A stretch of DNA of 57,383 nucleotides from a virus: IMG/VR virus record IMGVR_UViG_3300032299_000921, positions 1 to 57,383 of that record; one strand, written 5' to 3'. The notes beneath the pieces were generated by a model. That model was given only the letters and a program-made list of their open reading frames with translations. It did no database searches and was not told the origin of the DNA. Positions within the stretch are counted from its first letter, which is position 1. Each line of letters begins with the position of its first letter. Shown one piece after another: positions 1,456-57,381 of the stretch. Both the position numbers and the translations under genes were made by a program.

Positions 1456-1708
1456 AGCACAAGTCGATCAAGACAAGTACAATTTCTTTGTCGGTCAGTT
1501 TGATTCTGAGACCGATGCGTTAAATTATTTAGAAGTTTCACTCGATAAAATAGCAAGAAAACATTATAAGCAAAAAGACAATATAAAAACCCTAGAATTA
1601 AATATGCTGATACCATTAATCGATGGTATGCACAAGTATCTTTTAAGAAACAATATCACAATCAGTCAATTAGTAAACAACTTAATTAATAAAGCAATCA
1701 AGAAATGA
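1430..1708 (+). CDS. Hypothetical early protein
   Basis: A 92-aa charged, largely helical product rich in Lys, Asp and Asn, not recognised. It begins inside the end of the preceding gene (26-nt overlap) and ends in an ATGA junction with the recombinase gene, which supports translation in this frame. Its size and placement directly ahead of a recombinase would allow a small DNA-binding accessory role, but no helix-turn-helix or ribbon-helix-helix pattern is clear. Confidence 0.6.
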   Translation: MSKNIRKIKAQVDQDKYNFFVGQFDSETDALNYLEVSLDKIARKHYKQKDNIKTLELNMLIPLIDGMHKYLLRNNITISQLVNNLINKAIKK

Positions 1709-2382
1709 AAACAGTAGGTTATGTCCGTGTATCAACTGATACACAAGCAGAGAAAGGTAAATCAATCGATAATCAAATCGAACGTATCAAGAATTATTGT
1801 AAAGACAAGAAACTTAATTTGGAAAAAATCTTCATAGATGAAGGTTATAGTGGAAAAAATACGAATCGTCCAGGCTTCCAAGATATGTTTGAGGCTATTC
1901 GTAATGGAAAATATCAGGCATTAGTAGTATGGCACTCTAATCGTTTTGCTCGTAATCTCCGGGATTATTTAAATTGTCTTGATGAACTAGAGAAGAGTAA
2001 GGTTAAGTTCTACTCTATCGAAGAGCCAAACATCAGCGGATCCTCTGGTAAGGCTATGCGTAATCTTATGGGTGTCTTTGCAGAATACCAATCTGATATC
2101 ACCGGAGAACATACTCGTTCAGTTAAGTCTACCCTTAAGAAGAATAAGAAAGTCTATTGTCCTTATCCTCCCCTTGGATTTAAGAATGAGGAAGGTCAGT
2201 TAGTTCGAGACCCAAACACTTACGAAATAGTAAGTCAGATATTTGTGTATCGTGAGCAAGGTATGTCGATGCACACCATTGCTAAAACTCTTAACTCGAA
2301 AGATATCAAGGGACACAAGGGTGGTAAGTTCTACGCAAGTACAATTCAGAAGGTGTTAAACAATCCAATATACTTGAACTGA
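1705..2382 (+). CDS. Short serine recombinase
   Basis: The N-terminal 140 residues are a resolvase/invertase catalytic domain: GYVRVST with nucleophile Ser10 and Arg8, the DEGYSGKNTNRPGF stretch, and HSNRFARN near residue 77 with further active-site arginines. A recombinase-type DNA-binding region follows (about 150-225, PPLGF and the end QKVLNNPIY). At 225 aa it stops where large serine integrases continue into zinc-ribbon and coiled-coil domains, so it is a truncated large-serine-recombinase type or a stand-alone inverter/resolvase. No flanking inverted repeats suggesting an invertible segment were noticed. It may resolve multimers or be a relic of a temperate ancestor. The family is sure; the reaction is not. 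Confidence 0.88.
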   Translation: MKTVGYVRVSTDTQAEKGKSIDNQIERIKNYCKDKKLNLEKIFIDEGYSGKNTNRPGFQDMFEAIRNGKYQALVVWHSNRFARNLRDYLNCLDELEKSKVKFYSIEEPNISGSSGKAMRNLMGVFAEYQSDITGEHTRSVKSTLKKNKKVYCPYPPLGFKNEEGQLVRDPNTYEIVSQIFVYREQGMSMHTIAKTLNSKDIKGHKGGKFYASTIQKVLNNPIYLN

Positions 2383-4300: not shown

Positions 4301-6039
4301 ATGCAGATAAATTAGTAAAACTAGGAATCGATCTCCGGGACAGATGGAGTGGAGAAGTTAAAACACTATGTCCTAAGTGTTCACATCAACGTAAGAAGAA
4401 GAGTGACCCATCTCTTGGTGTTAATATAGACACCGGAGTTTGGAAGTGTCACCATTGCGGTTGGAGTGGTTCGGTTAATCAGTATGTGAGACCCGAACCT
4501 AAGCAACCAATTCAAACTGAAGGCATCTATGAATACTTTGAGAAAAGAAAAATCTCCAAGGAGACTGTTGAATACTTTGGTATCGCAGAGTCAAGGGAAT
4601 GGATGCCTCAAGATCAGAAAGAACATCGTGTAATTTGTTTCAATTATTTTTTAGATGGAGAACTCATCAATATCAAATTCAAGACCGCTGACAAGAAGTT
4701 CAAGATGGTCAAGGACGCAAGAAAGATTCCATATAATATCGATGCAATCAAGGATAGTCATTATGCTATTATATGCGAAGGCGAAGAAGAAACTATGGTC
4801 TGGCATCAATCGGGTCTCAGAGCAGTTTCTGTTCCGAATGGTGCTAGTCGCAACAACAATAACCTTGATTGGTTGGATTCTACTTATGAACTATTTGACC
4901 AGAAGGTAATCTATCTTGCTACAGATAACGATGAGCCTGGAAGAAAACTAAAGGAAGACTTAGCTCGTAGGTTTACATCTGCTGATATTCGTATCATCGA
5001 ATTCCCTGAGAATGAGAAGGATGCTAACGATTGTCTAAAGAGATACGGCCAAGACTTTATCACTCGTCTGTTTGAGAATGCCAAGCCTTTACCTATTTCA
5101 GAAATCTCTTCTGCATTAGATCATCTCTCTACCATCCAATCGTATCACAAGGATGGATATCCGGTGGGATCGCTTGTAGGAATGTCTGAGACCGATGAGC
5201 ATATCTCTTGGAATCGTGGGGAGTTAGGTGTAGTCACAGGTATCCCTGGCTCAGGTAAGTCAACGTGGTTAGACTATATGTTTATACGCCTTGCCTATCT
5301 GAAGAATTGGAAGTTCGGTGTATTCTCTCCAGAGAACATAGCACCTTTGAAGATTACTCGTATGTCTGAGCAGTTATTGGGTAAACCATTAAGTGCGATG
5401 AACTCGGTTGAGATTGAGCATTCAGTACAAATAATCAGTAATCATTTTTGGTTCTACAATGTAGAAACCTTGGAGGACTATACCTTGGGTAACCTATTAA
5501 GATTGGGTGAGACCCTAATCAAACGCCACGGTATTGATTGTCTACTACTCGATCCTTTTAACTACATCGAAAATGACTCAACTGAGGATAGTTCAAATGA
5601 AAAGATTGGTATTTTATTACGAACTTTGAAGAAATTTGCTGTAAAAAATAATGTATTGGTCGTTTTGGTTGCCCATCCTAGAAAAATGGATAGAACATCC
5701 GCTGGGTATAATGTTCCTAGGCTTTACGATATTAGTGGATCTCATCATTTTTTTAATGTGCCTGATTGGGGTTTGGCAGTCCATCGTTCATTCCAAAATG
5801 GTCAGAAAGATCCGGTCGAGGTTCACATCCAAAAAATCAAGTGGCACTTCCGAGGAAAACTTGGGCGAGTAGATTACGAATTTGACCGAGCGAGTGGTCA
5901 GTATTCAGAGGACGATAAGTTTAGAAGTTTAATAACCATCAAGAATGACTTGGAAACTAATGAAAATGATTTGTTTAGCTCATCAGAAGCGTGGGGAAGA
6001 GGTAGTGGAATTCAACCTCAATCCGATTTATTTCTCTAA
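4297..6039 (+). CDS. DNA primase-helicase (T7 gp4 type)
   Basis: The protein combines an N-terminal zinc-binding domain (CPKC at 25-28 and CHHC at 51-54), a TOPRIM primase core (ICEGEEE near 158 and ATDNDEPG near 207) and a RecA-like hexameric helicase domain with Walker A GIPGSGKST near 315 and Walker B-like CLLLDP near 414, followed by H3/H4-type segments. This is the T7 gp4 architecture, which unwinds the fork and primes lagging-strand synthesis. I chose the ATG at 4297 because it forms ATGA with the preceding stop; an in-frame ATG at 4285 would add four residues. It works with the PolB gene just downstream. Confidence 0.93.
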   Translation: MNADKLVKLGIDLRDRWSGEVKTLCPKCSHQRKKKSDPSLGVNIDTGVWKCHHCGWSGSVNQYVRPEPKQPIQTEGIYEYFEKRKISKETVEYFGIAESREWMPQDQKEHRVICFNYFLDGELINIKFKTADKKFKMVKDARKIPYNIDAIKDSHYAIICEGEEETMVWHQSGLRAVSVPNGASRNNNNLDWLDSTYELFDQKVIYLATDNDEPGRKLKEDLARRFTSADIRIIEFPENEKDANDCLKRYGQDFITRLFENAKPLPISEISSALDHLSTIQSYHKDGYPVGSLVGMSETDEHISWNRGELGVVTGIPGSGKSTWLDYMFIRLAYLKNWKFGVFSPENIAPLKITRMSEQLLGKPLSAMNSVEIEHSVQIISNHFWFYNVETLEDYTLGNLLRLGETLIKRHGIDCLLLDPFNYIENDSTEDSSNEKIGILLRTLKKFAVKNNVLVVLVAHPRKMDRTSAGYNVPRLYDISGSHHFFNVPDWGLAVHRSFQNGQKDPVEVHIQKIKWHFRGKLGRVDYEFDRASGQYSEDDKFRSLITIKNDLETNENDLFSSSEAWGRGSGIQPQSDLFL

Positions 6040-49185: not shown

Positions 49186-50136
49186 TTAACCTGGGAATAA
49201 GGTTGAAAAGGCTTCTTGAACAGCCTCAAGACCAGAACTAACAATCTTTCCAGAATTAGAATAATTTTTTGAAGGATTAGTTACTTCTTTTATAACTTGT
49301 TCCTTACCTTCATTCTTAGCTTTTGTAATGTTAGCCTTTACTAAATCCGCTCCATAGTTTAACCATAGAGCGACACTATACATTTTCTCAACATCAATAG
49401 AACCATCTTTTCTTGTCATTGTGAAATCTTTCTCTAAATAGCTTTTTAAATTTTTCGACATTTCGTCTGTAATTTTTAAACCAAATAGTTCTTTTTCAGC
49501 AAGATTCGTAGAGAATTCTTCTAAATCTGTATGATACTTATCGACAATGGCTTTTGCTTTTAAGTCTGATTCATTATTAGATTGAGTAAGTTGTTTCAAC
49601 TTATCTTCATTCTTTTTTTGAAACTTTTCTTTAAAGTTTTCAACCAATTGTTTCTTTTGGAATAGAGATGAATTCTTGTAATCGTAAAGAGCTTGTTCAG
49701 TTTCTTCCTCTGTCAAATTCATAAAATTCTTCAGACCTTCTTCTACAATTTTTTCATCTCCCCAAGATGAAGTATCTTCAACTTGGTATTCTTTGATGAA
49801 ATCAGCCAAAGTTTTTCCGCTTTTTTTGTATTCCATCAAAAGCTTCATTTCTTCGTCTAATTCAATTTCCGGAGCTTTAGTTTCAGTTTGAGTTTGATTC
49901 TCAACTTTCTCTTCAGACTCATTTTTCTTTTCCCACCAAGGAGTTTCGTCTTGCTCCGTATTATTTGTTTGCGTTACTGAATCAGTAATCTGATCATTAA
50001 CTGCATTTGTTTTTTCAGAGGTTTCAACAGAAGTTTCTTCTGTCTTACCCTCTGGAGTATTTTGATTTTGGTTAGTTGTAACAGTTTGATTTCTCAATTC
50101 TTCTGCTATCTCTCCAAACAATTGTTCGTTACTCAT
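49186..50136 (-). CDS. Scaffolding protein
   Basis: The 316-aa protein is acidic and helical, with a low-complexity Glu/Thr/Asn/Gln-rich N-terminal 95 residues, a central coiled-coil-prone region (KEKFQKKNEDKLKQL near 168), and a C-terminal tail ending AVQEAFSTLFPG. This composition, between portal and major capsid genes, is typical of scaffolds that shape the procapsid. No protease domain is seen. TAATTTTG lies 7 nt before the ATG. Confidence 0.78.
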   Translation of the reverse strand: MSNEQLFGEIAEELRNQTVTTNQNQNTPEGKTEETSVETSEKTNAVNDQITDSVTQTNNTEQDETPWWEKKNESEEKVENQTQTETKAPEIELDEEMKLLMEYKKSGKTLADFIKEYQVEDTSSWGDEKIVEEGLKNFMNLTEEETEQALYDYKNSSLFQKKQLVENFKEKFQKKNEDKLKQLTQSNNESDLKAKAIVDKYHTDLEEFSTNLAEKELFGLKITDEMSKNLKSYLEKDFTMTRKDGSIDVEKMYSVALWLNYGADLVKANITKAKNEGKEQVIKEVTNPSKNYSNSGKIVSSGLEAVQEAFSTLFPG

Positions 50137-50177: not shown

Positions 50178-52346
50178 TTATATTTGTTGACCTAATTGCT
50201 GCTGCTGTTGTTGTTGCTGTTGCTGTTGTTGCTGTTCTAATTGACGATCTTGACGGAAATTAGCATTCTCTTCACGCATTGCTGCTTGTTCTGCTTGAGC
50301 TGCCATTTGTTGTTGCTGTTGCATCATTGCCATCATTTGTTGTTGCTGTCTAACTTTTTCAGCCTCACGCATCTTTCTTCCGATGCTGTATTGCAACTCG
50401 TTCAAAGCCTCAGTATATGTTTTAGATTGCTCTACTTTAATATAATCAATAAAGTCAATCATTTGATTTTGCATTGCTGCTTGGGCTTGCATTAACAAAC
50501 GTTCACGAGCTTGCTCATCAATAAAGTCTTTAATCTTAATGTATACTCCTAGTTCTTCAAAACCAAAGTCTTTTGTTAATTTGACATAGTTCATTCCGTG
50601 AGTCCCAACCACACCCATAGTTGTCTCTTCATCAGAATCGATAAGACTTAACTTAAACTGATTAAGAGCGTGTGCTAATTGTTTCTCAATGAAACGAATA
50701 AATCCTTGATACAAATAAGCAGTTCCCAAGTTGGATTGTGCAATAGTACCAGCTTGTGTTTTAGCACCTACGTAACCACCTTGTTGACCAAGAGCAATCT
50801 TTGGAATATTTACAATCTCTTCCATCAAACGCTCTTCTTCTCTTCTTAGTGCAACAAGTTGCTGCACATTTGCATCGAGTGTCATATCAACTACTTCAAC
50901 CAAACGAGCATCTTGCCCGGCAACAAAATCTTCTCCGGTAGCAGAGCCATCTGTGATGTGGATACCCATTCTTTCAAAATCGCTGATAACATCTTGTGCT
51001 GTTGAACTACCGAGTTTTTGTCGGTTAATCAAGAATACTTTTCCTTTTGCACGAGTCATCATCTTAGTAATTTCGTTTGTAATGAAATCAATACGATCTT
51101 GATGCTGATGCAAACGAGAAACAACGGAGCGATTTTCACCCAATACCATGTTAGGCATAAATACCTTGATTGGCATTTCTACATCTCCAGGATTATCGAG
51201 TTTACGAACTATGTTGTTTTCTTCTCCGTAATCTACTACATAACGATTACCGATTAGAATTGCTTTATTGACAGTCTTTGTCCAAAAAGAACCTTTTTTA
51301 TTCTTACGCATTTTAGCGTAATGCACGTTACCAAATTTATCTTGATTCTTTTCATACTTCAAATCTTTCATACCTACCCAATAGCCAGTTACTACTGCAA
51401 TCATTGGAACAGAATTGTAAGTAAAAGCCCAAGTAGTTGCATATGGGTGAGTAGTCAAGTCTAACAACTGATACAAGTTGTTACTATTAATTTTTTTGAT
51501 TTCCTCAATTTCTTCAGTAGTCAAGAAATCTTTATATCGTTCGATGATGTCAGTAGTTGGCATATAGTCAACAACACCAACGAATCGGGACTCAGATAAG
51601 AAATCGTCATCTTTACTCCTATCAACAATTAAGTTATGAGGAAGAATAACATCAAAATATTGCTTTCCGTTTTCTATACGATTGTGAATACCAACATAAC
51701 CTCCAAGTAAGGTATAAAGAAACGCTTGTTTGTATTTATCTTGAAAACTATTTCTATTTAAAATGTCTTCTACAATTCGAGTAGCAATTATATCTCCTTG
51801 TTCTTTGTAATCGTATTCCATAAAACGATACAAGTCCTCTGGAGTTTCAATTTGTTGAGGTACATCAGAAAGAGGTTCAAATTGCATTCCTGTCAATTCA
51901 GCAACCTCTTCAAAAAATTCTCTGAATTGTAAACGAACTAATGCAAGTTCCAAAAGTTGTTGTTTTCTTTCAACTGCTGGTTTTGAAATAATTTTTGTAG
52001 TAGGCTCAAGATTCTCCAGTATGTTAATAGCATTACCAACCATGTAATCAATCAATGATGTGATTTTTTGACCATTGATCCATACACTAGGTAAATCACA
52101 ATTGTTCTGATCTTGAGTAGTGTAGTAATAATCTTTGTTGTATTGTCTCCCTAGATAGTAACTAAACATTCTTACTATTTCGTCAACTGGATTTTCTATA
52201 TCCTCCACTCTTTTGATTCTATTGGTCCTGTCATTTCTTTTATTGAAATGGGACATAATGAATTGGACGTTTTCTTTGAACCAATCCTTATTTTTCTCCT
52301 CATTGGATAAAAATTGATTAGGTTGGTTTCTAATTGTATATGCCAT
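50178..52346 (-). CDS. Portal protein
   Basis: The 722-aa protein is the first gene of the virion module. It has an N-terminal helical/acidic clip-type region, segments such as GQKITSLIDYMVGNAINI (near 90) and IVDRSKDDDFLSESRFVG (near 237), and a long helical crown ending in a Met/Gln-rich tail with about 13 consecutive Gln. Size and position fit podovirus portals, through which DNA enters and leaves. TAAATTTG lies 6 nt before the ATG, just after an intrinsic terminator, so it has its own promoter. Confidence 0.85.
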   Translation of the reverse strand: MAYTIRNQPNQFLSNEEKNKDWFKENVQFIMSHFNKRNDRTNRIKRVEDIENPVDEIVRMFSYYLGRQYNKDYYYTTQDQNNCDLPSVWINGQKITSLIDYMVGNAINILENLEPTTKIISKPAVERKQQLLELALVRLQFREFFEEVAELTGMQFEPLSDVPQQIETPEDLYRFMEYDYKEQGDIIATRIVEDILNRNSFQDKYKQAFLYTLLGGYVGIHNRIENGKQYFDVILPHNLIVDRSKDDDFLSESRFVGVVDYMPTTDIIERYKDFLTTEEIEEIKKINSNNLYQLLDLTTHPYATTWAFTYNSVPMIAVVTGYWVGMKDLKYEKNQDKFGNVHYAKMRKNKKGSFWTKTVNKAILIGNRYVVDYGEENNIVRKLDNPGDVEMPIKVFMPNMVLGENRSVVSRLHQHQDRIDFITNEITKMMTRAKGKVFLINRQKLGSSTAQDVISDFERMGIHITDGSATGEDFVAGQDARLVEVVDMTLDANVQQLVALRREEERLMEEIVNIPKIALGQQGGYVGAKTQAGTIAQSNLGTAYLYQGFIRFIEKQLAHALNQFKLSLIDSDEETTMGVVGTHGMNYVKLTKDFGFEELGVYIKIKDFIDEQARERLLMQAQAAMQNQMIDFIDYIKVEQSKTYTEALNELQYSIGRKMREAEKVRQQQQMMAMMQQQQQMAAQAEQAAMREENANFRQDRQLEQQQQQQQQQQQQQLGQQI
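50190..50240. repeat. CAG/CAA trinucleotide repeat in portal
   Basis: A run of CAG and CAA codons encodes about 13 consecutive Gln near the portal C-terminus. Mixed codons limit slippage, but the run is the longest single-residue tract noticed in the window. Confidence 0.8.
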
Positions 52347-52352
52347 TGATTA

Positions 52353-52360
52353 CAAATTTA
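52353..52360 (-). promoter_or_regulatory. -7 element TAAATTTG of portal
   Basis: TAAATTTG on the minus strand ends 6 nt before the portal ATG. It fits the Bacteroidetes TAnnTTTG consensus and immediately follows the terminator. A clear -33 TTG at the right spacing is not seen in the T-rich stretch upstream. Confidence 0.5.
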
Positions 52361-52381
52361 TGCAAAAAGAATAAAAAAAAG

Positions 52382-52418
52382 AAATGCCCTTTTTTTAAAG
52401 AGCATAGTTAGGGCATTT
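52382..52418 (-). terminator. Intrinsic terminator between the candidate ncRNA and portal
   Basis: AAATGCCCT pairs with AGGGCATTT in a perfect 9-bp stem with a 19-nt loop. In the leftward direction it is followed by CTTTTTTTTATTC. It ends about 35 nt before the portal ATG, so leftward transcripts from 52.6 kb should stop before portal. Confidence 0.75.
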
Positions 52419-52491
52419 AGATAATTACTCTTAGTACTAGTTACTCCGAGAACAACAATGCATCTGCTTACGGAACCAGAAATAAACCATA

Positions 52492-52509
52492 CCCCCCTTT
52501 CCCCCCTTT
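52492..52509. repeat. Tandem C6T3 repeat (G-rich on minus strand)
   Basis: CCCCCCTTT occurs twice in direct succession and is followed by CC. On the minus strand this reads as two AAAGGGGGG units, a run of G-tracts unusual in this AT-rich genome that could form a G-quadruplex in RNA or DNA. A further GGGGG lies at about 52605-52609. Confidence 0.8.
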
Positions 52510-52634
52510 CCAAAAAAGCCATTTTGACTTTTAAGAAAATTGGTTAAGGTCGGGCTGGTTGATTCCGCAAGTCTCACCTGCTTTACTCACCAGACGGTTT
52601 CTAACATACCCCCATTACAAAGTCCACCGTATTG

Positions 52635-52666
52635 CAAATATAATATCAAAAAAAATTATTCTGCAA
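52635..52666 (-). promoter_or_regulatory. Promoter for the candidate ncRNA
   Basis: On the minus strand TTG (52664-52666) and TATATTTG (52635-52642) are separated by 21 nt, within the spacing of Bacteroidetes promoters. The -33 part lies in the last codons of the region just after RusA's stop. Confidence 0.6.
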
Positions 52667-53048
52667 GTAAATAATGCGAAGGAATCAAAGTTTTTATGTG
52701 AAACTCAATAAACTCAGCACCTTTCTCGACTAAATTTTTTTCTACAATGAGTCTGTAAATGTACTTATCGTTGAACTTGTATTTCTTTTGAAGTACGTCA
52801 ACGAATGGTTTTACCACATTGTCTATGTCTGATTGCATATTGCTGAGACCCACAATTAAAGTGAGTTCTATTGGTTTCTTATCCCAATTGATTTCTGTTG
52901 GAGGAAGAGTGTACAATAATTCTAATTCGTAAGCTTGATATTTTTTACTTTTGAATCTTTTACCTTGCCAAGCTTCATTTACAGATAAAGGTTTAATATT
53001 AACCTTATTGGAAAAGAGAACGATATTCTTTCCAGATTTGTTCGCCAT
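52656..53048 (-). CDS. RusA-family Holliday junction resolvase
   Basis: The 130-aa protein has the RusA pattern: an N-terminal SVNEAWQGKRF (22-32) and the metal-binding core DIDNVVKPFVDVL with Asp74, Asp76, Lys80 and Asp84, plus a later Asp94. It would cut branched DNA during recombination or before packaging. It overlaps the upstream regulator gene by 44 nt. It is the last gene before the non-coding interval leading to portal. Confidence 0.85.
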   Translation of the reverse strand: MANKSGKNIVLFSNKVNIKPLSVNEAWQGKRFKSKKYQAYELELLYTLPPTEINWDKKPIELTLIVGLSNMQSDIDNVVKPFVDVLQKKYKFNDKYIYRLIVEKNLVEKGAEFIEFHIKTLIPSHYLLAE

Positions 53049-57257: not shown

Positions 57258-57381
57258 AGTCAGGTGGCGGAATGGTAGACGCACGATTTGTTGTTTAACG
57301 ATGTGGCTCAATGTCCAAATGGATGAGAGAAAATAAACAGAAAAATATACCACACTACAGGTTCGAATCCTGTCCTGACTA
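57258..57381 (+). tRNA. tRNA-like gene without a normal anticodon arm
   Basis: AGTCAGG (57258-57264) pairs perfectly with CCTGACT (57374-57380). A Leu-type D arm follows (GCG, loop GAATGGTAGA, CGC), and the T arm is perfect (ACAGG, loop TTCGAAT, CCTGT). Between them lie 74 nt instead of roughly 35-40. No 5-bp stem with a 7-nt loop and U33 can be drawn. Instead TTTGTTGTTTA (57287-57297) pairs with TAAACAGAAAA (57334-57344) with one mismatch and one G-U, enclosing a small CTCA/TGAG hairpin. It could be an intron-containing or degenerate tRNA-Leu, or an anticodon-less tRNA mimic. The encoded 3' end is ACA at the window edge. Confidence 0.6.

Follow-up and report, generated by a model that had tools for sequence, protein, structure and literature searches.

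Based on the comparative evidence given below, we conclude that the minus-strand interval between the RusA-like endonuclease gene and the portal gene is very probably an independent gene encoding a structured noncoding RNA, here called type A, of which a transcript is predicted. The window, i.e., the whole stretch of DNA analysed, is a virus record of 57,383 bp with a Bacteroidota-like promoter signature, and the host of this phage is probably a member of the Bacteroidota. The predicted RNA is approximately 255 nt long in the window, with a conserved core of about 180 nt, and its fold is kept in dozens of uncultured related phages. We assign it to a gene of its own because of a conserved promoter, covarying stems, a terminator in the window's group, the lack of an open reading frame and a single copy per genome. 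A preliminary description of the window had suggested a phage small RNA, regulatory, used in packaging or serving as an attenuated leader; an independently transcribed structured RNA is well supported by promoter, stems, missing ORF and copy number, while the attenuated leader and, beyond its position, the packaging analogy were not supported.

Promoter, terminator and relatives of the predicted RNA gene

About 255 bases without a plausible gene follow a Bacteroidota-type promoter (Table 1). The sigma-A consensus of this phylum comprises a −33 TTG and a −7 TAnnTTTG, and the −7 box of Flavobacterium johnsoniae spans positions −12 to −5 (PMC6847099). With this spacing, the RNA is predicted to begin exactly where the 5′ hairpin P1 begins, and the portal mRNA two bases ahead of the portal start codon (ATG at 52346). 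The pattern TTG-N21-TATATTTG was matched twice in the window with 1.9 matches expected, which is not significant; since about two matches are expected by chance, the observation in one genome alone is weak. However, in all 28 non-redundant type A relatives a TTG precedes a TAnnNTTG box by 19–21 bases, and the first hairpin follows within a few bases of the box, i.e., each has a −33 TTG and a −7 box at the spacing of a sigma-A unit. The promoter proposed earlier at 52666-52635 was thus borne out by the relatives. The 9-bp hairpin with a U-tract described with it was found as well; such a terminator is present in the window's group and absent or unclear in some relatives. Beyond it, the portal gene does have a promoter box of its own, as had been claimed, and this box is conserved in relatives. 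In the window as in the relatives it is located very near the ATG (52346-52360, minus strand), so that a leaderless or nearly leaderless portal mRNA is predicted. Most Flavobacterium mRNAs carry leaders.

Table 1. Features of the RNA locus in the window, and other structured RNAs in further contigs (L numbers).
Feature	Position	Strand	Details
RusA-like endonuclease gene	52656-53048		Flanks the RNA interval
Bacteroidota-type promoter	52635..52666	−	TTG-N21-TATATTTG; TTG 52666-52664, TATATTTG 52642-52635
Type A noncoding RNA gene (predicted)	52375..52630	−	~255 nt; predicted start 52630
P1 hairpin	52594..52630	−	ACGGU (52630-52626) with ACCGU (52598-52594)
P1 loop	52605..52613	−	GGGGGUAUG; AUGGGGGUA invariant in 28 relatives
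Unit 1	52575..52593	−	CUGGUGAGUAAAGCAGGUG; first direct-repeat copy
Strand S	52555..52571	−	CUUGCGGAAUCAACCAG; can pair with unit 1 (P2) or unit 2 (P3)
Inner hairpin	52485..52545	−	P4 AACCA/UGGUU, P5 UUUUC/GGAAA, variable tip
Invariant purine stretch	52488..52510	−	GAAAGGGGGGAAAGGGGGGUAUG; predicted bulge; invariant in 28/28
Unit 2	52461..52479	−	CUGGUUCCGUAAGCAGAUG; second direct-repeat copy, 3′ strand of P3
Variable AT-rich tail	52406..52460	−
Intrinsic terminator	52375..52405	−	9-pair hairpin 52405-52384 and U-tract
Separate portal promoter box	52353..52360	−	TAAATTTG; predicted start 52348
Portal gene	50178-52346	−	PHROG 6547; ATG at 52346
Type B RNA	L131:5618-5987; L156:5657-5996; L159:5600-5949		Portal slot
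Type B RNA	L157, about 5600-5960	−	Transcribed away from portal
Type B RNA	L225:1950-2380		Antisense to structural genes; contractile-tailed phage contig
Type C RNA	L132:5040-5571; L124:794-1223; also L120, L152, L181		~300–400 nt; CGGUUCUUACAG..AAGAUGACGAGU..GUAAGGCA
Further structured intervals before portal	L165:4070-4440, L166, L175; L167:5350-5900		Differ from the other types

The exact stretch GGAAAGGGGGGAAAGGGGGG occurs in 53 IMG/VR contigs, nearly all of them with the same gene neighbourhood. Relatives were also gathered by their portal protein, which avoids selection by the motif. Every portal-gathered relative with a RusA–portal gap of the same size carried GGAAAGGGGGGAAAGGGGGG with at most two mismatches, located at its first and last bases, and the GAAAGGGGGGAAAGGGGGGUAUG stretch was found in every portal-anchored relative with an interval of type A length. 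The comparative set consists of 28 non-redundant type A sequences; portals of the type A relatives are approximately 66–76% identical, yet the G-tracts are invariant. Since all type A genomes have the gene order in common, the constant position is weak as evidence. The pattern TNATGGGGGTATGTTA by itself retrieved many unrelated contigs, and matches in L010, L029 and L250 were rejected as similar G-tracts occurring by chance in other sequence. A scan of GTDB yielded only two contigs, both from one MAG. L181 and L182 (MAG WB4_6_108, RFPL01, labelled Sphingomonadaceae) are two different phages of the window clade with Bacteroidota-type promoters, which makes the Sphingomonadaceae binning or label doubtful.

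No reading frame is shared among the 28 relatives. Frames and stops differ between them, and a conserved small peptide was therefore rejected; stems are conserved rather than a frame, the reverse of what the preliminary description had named as evidence against an RNA. The folding z-score is −3.8 in the window and averages −2.9 on the sense versus −1.5 on the antisense strand of the 28 relatives. With a covariance model of type A, four long type A records (57–69 kb) each gave a single copy, and eight records with other RNAs gave none.

Two observations concern other parts of the window. At 57258-57381 (plus strand), an Rfam tRNA match is stretched over 124 bases, and ARAGORN finds no tRNA in the window; this is possibly an interrupted, decayed or long-insert tRNA at the end of the record. 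The 225-aa serine recombinase encoded at 1705-2382 (plus strand) has a resolvase domain and only the start of a recombinase domain and looks like a shortened integrase.

Covarying stems, duplicated segments and alternative pairing

Compensatory changes in P1 were detected by RNAalifold (C-G/G-C, A-U/G-C and U-A/C-G). In the inner hairpin, P5 was found by the same program and P4 was read by eye from the alignment, where L134 has UUAGG/CCUAA. The invariant stretch of this second hairpin domain follows the pattern G6-A3-G6-UAUG, and GGGGGUA is present both in the P1 loop and in the bulge of the main hairpin. Judged by the alignment, the G-tract bulge appears as invariant as a functional site can be. 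Two occurrences of GGGGGTATG are found in the window, both within the RNA interval, with 0.11 expected.

Helices were assessed by comparing how well each strand pairs with the partner from the same phage and with those of other phages, using 5000 permutations; kinship among the phages makes this procedure conservative. Own partners were clearly favoured in P1 (−12.6 vs. −9.1 kcal/mol) and P3 (−16.3 vs. −10.7 kcal/mol), none of the 5000 permutations being as good in either case. Support for P2, which is energetically weaker, is modest (−10.75 vs. −9.63 kcal/mol; 8/5000), and when unit 1 was paired with unit 2 as a control, the own partner was not preferred. P3 pairs CUUGCGGAAUCA with UGGUUCCGUAAG in the window, CUUGUGGAGCU with GGCUCCACAAG in L013, and CUUGUA with UACAAG in L110. 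The complementary segments that the preliminary description had noticed are real and covary, as judged by this pairing comparison and by RNAalifold.

Units 1 and 2, which come after the first and the second GGGGGUA, respectively, flank the main hairpin and form a short direct repeat with an A/G-rich core, AGNAARU, that is constant in part. The repeat is matched inside each phage and divergent across phages, e.g., GUAGCGACACGAGGUAUUAAA/GUAGCUCUACAAGGUAUUAAA in L110 and AAGGUGACGGAGUAAUAUA/AAGGUUCAAGAGUAAUAUA in L134. The two copies agree on average in 7.06 of 8 positions within a phage, compared to a maximum of 6.49 over 5000 permutations (0/5000). This agreement is partly explained by strand S, which can pair with either unit. 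The last bases of the repeat, from NAARU onward, are left unaccounted for by S and call for another partner. Complements of the direct repeat were not enriched elsewhere in the same phage (loci of about 10–14 kb, and the window), and an RNA target in the same phage reached via such a complement was rejected on this basis. In comparison with the nearly identical contig L001, the window has no differences from the promoter to unit 2 and five within twenty bases just past it (52438-52457), which places the 3′ border of the core there. About 13 further differences from L001, otherwise 99% identical, are found at 50064-50115, near the start of the post-portal gene (49186-50136). Taken together, the RNA is probably built twofold, with two mutually exclusive pairings of strand S.

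Other RNA types in the RusA–portal slot

Relatives without type A carry other, mutually exclusive structured RNAs between RusA and portal (Table 1). Rfam searches with these types at gathering and permissive thresholds gave chance-level hits only. Type B is about 350 nt long. It contains a hairpin with the loop GGCACUAAGGAMUGAG, to which an AKUCC further downstream can pair, and is devoid of the G6A3G6 stretch. By eye, its 3′ end has the same repeat-hairpin-repeat layout as type A. Searching type B automatically for its best direct repeat gave noisy output, and we therefore quote repeats read from the sequences: GAGCAAGU/AAGCAAAU in L156, GAGAAAGU/AAGAAAAU in L154 and GAACAAGU/AAACAAAU in L159. 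In L225, type B is located between the genes for a head-tail adaptor (connector) and the tail sheath, with its own TTG-N20-TATATTTG. Type A is always upstream of the portal gene and on its strand, as expected of a cis-acting leader; type B is not, in L157 and L225. Since type B is reversed in L157 and antisense in L225, whose virion is unrelated, the readings as a portal leader and as a packaging RNA tied to portal both fail to fit. Between a type B RNA and portal in L162 (5195-6000), a reversed ORF is inserted that encodes an HNH-like motif (HHITYKN..CSRCHR).

By pattern, type C is limited to seven IMG/VR contigs of the clade and one MAG contig; a small ORF follows it in several cases. Type D, a short, pseudoknot- or terminator-like element of about 115 nt, is located upstream of B or C in several contigs, types C and D occurring across L111, L120, L124, L131, L132, L152 and L181. 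Among the further intervals, the hairpin CUCGAAAGAG is present twice in the L165 group, and L167 has a long hairpin with some 18 pairs. An ORF separates the RNA from portal in L161 and L170.

Possible roles of the RNA

We prefer a trans-acting RNA with duplicated binding motifs. During transcription, P2 would fold first, with the upstream repeat copy, which is made earlier and pairs more weakly; strand S would then switch to the stronger P3 with the downstream copy. The RNA could act in trans as a platform that offers GGGGGUA twice and the AGNAARU-type repeat twice to one partner. Such a partner would coevolve with the phage; the simplest candidates would be a phage protein that forms dimers or a nucleic acid of complementary sequence. 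Sponge RNAs of the CsrB/RsmZ type contain several copies of one motif, GGA, in loops and linkers. The RNA described here resembles them in having several copies of one motif in such places, but its motif is not GGA, and its copies vary between phages and match within each. The two-site platform is put forward tentatively; for the explanation as a whole, combining stand-alone gene, twofold build, switch and trans platform, we see an even chance.

The main rival, which we regard as rather unlikely, takes the G-rich transcript as a replication primer forming a lasting R-loop at the phage origin, in the style of ColE1 RNA II or mitochondrial CSBII. The loop GGGGGUA would pair with the template C-tract at 52510-52488, the pairing of S would decide on the hybrid, and RNase H would create the end from which the phage DNA polymerase is primed. 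G-rich R-loop primers have been described for ColE1 and mitochondria, where the G-rich stretch is essential to forming the hybrid (PMC6317783). In the window, two G-tracts share GGGGGUA, an upstream and a downstream segment compete for strand S, and an AT-rich variable tail lies downstream; primase-helicase and DNA polymerase genes are present in the same genome. The cumulative GC skew has its minimum at 53–54 kb, adjoining the RNA, but is confounded by gene orientation. In ColE1 RNA II, the segment in the middle has alternative pairing partners on its upstream and downstream sides (alpha/beta/gamma). The type A RNA resembles it in the G-rich stretch and in the alternative pairing of a middle strand, for which the support from P2 is modest. 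In contrast, there is no sequence relation to these systems and no match to the RNA in PLSDB, and a terminator follows the core in the window's group. Further, the missing G6A3G6 stretch in type B argues against a general primer role, as does the location of type B among structural genes in L225.

A somewhat smaller probability is given to a decoy directed at the host or its defence. Exposed tracts would bind a host component, such as the 3′ end of 16S rRNA or a defence nuclease, and the locus would diversify by exchange of RNAs, which is consistent with mutually exclusive types at one locus. The tandem copies of GAAAGGGGG are complementary to CCUCCUUUC at the 16S rRNA 3′ end with one G-U. However, the G-U position is never the A needed for a perfect match, type B is without the tandem stretch, and the strict invariance of type A across diverged phages resembles a core function.

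A packaging RNA bound to the portal vertex, as suggested earlier by analogy with the phi29 pRNA, is very unlikely. Like pRNA, this would be a phage-encoded structured RNA, and the portal gene adjoins it throughout the window clade, so that position is what the analogy has in its favour. On the other hand, the phage has a conventional terminase large subunit (604 aa, PHROG 6681) rather than a packaging ATPase of the phi29 type, and RNA types are swapped beside conserved portals. An RNA of related layout, type B, occurs in the unrelated virion context of L225. No complementary loop pair for an RNA ring was seen by eye in the type A alignment, and Rfam gave no gathering-level match in the window, nor did scanning the interval at permissive thresholds return anything that resembles pRNA. 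Equally improbable is a DNA element (packaging cut site, origin or recombination site) with hairpins acting as DNA. Proteins can bind DNA at long G-tracts and direct repeats, but the conserved promoter is placed exactly at the first base of P1, the covarying stems include G-U pairs, and the sense strand folds more strongly. Contig ends are not clustered here (one within 200 bp vs. 1.9 expected) and thus give no sign of a packaging cut at the element. Least of all do we favour an attenuated or regulatory leader of the portal operon: in the window the RNA immediately precedes portal in the same orientation, and a clear terminator is not present in every relative, but the conserved separate promoter would leave the portal mRNA a two-base leader, type B is reversed or placed elsewhere, and an ORF intervenes in L161 and L170.

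Databases were searched for described relatives of the RNA. The Rfam search proposed in the preliminary description gave no family match: the window interval produced chance-level hits only, at gathering and permissive thresholds, and none at a curated threshold. INPHARED contained no match, either by tblastn of portal or by blastn of types A and B, and no report of the type A RNA was found in the literature searched. GOLLD, ROOL and OLE are likewise conserved structured noncoding RNAs without known relatives, the former two phage-associated (PMC12286853), but they are much larger, and the RNA did not match their Rfam models. Thus, no described RNA family matches, although the kind itself, a structured noncoding RNA of phages, is familiar; unusual are its twofold construction and a locus at which phages swap RNA genes that are unrelated or half-related.

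It is conceivable, though we would not expect it, that one dedicated RNA slot between the recombination and virion modules holds exchangeable families which share a duplicated coevolving segment and a transcription-timed strand switch. Such families would form a new core class of phage RNA, possibly a G-tract R-loop replication primer. To our knowledge, core RNAs of tailed phages are few. Missing from the annotated collections searched but recurrent in dozens of uncultured phages, the type A RNA provides a concrete, testable target.
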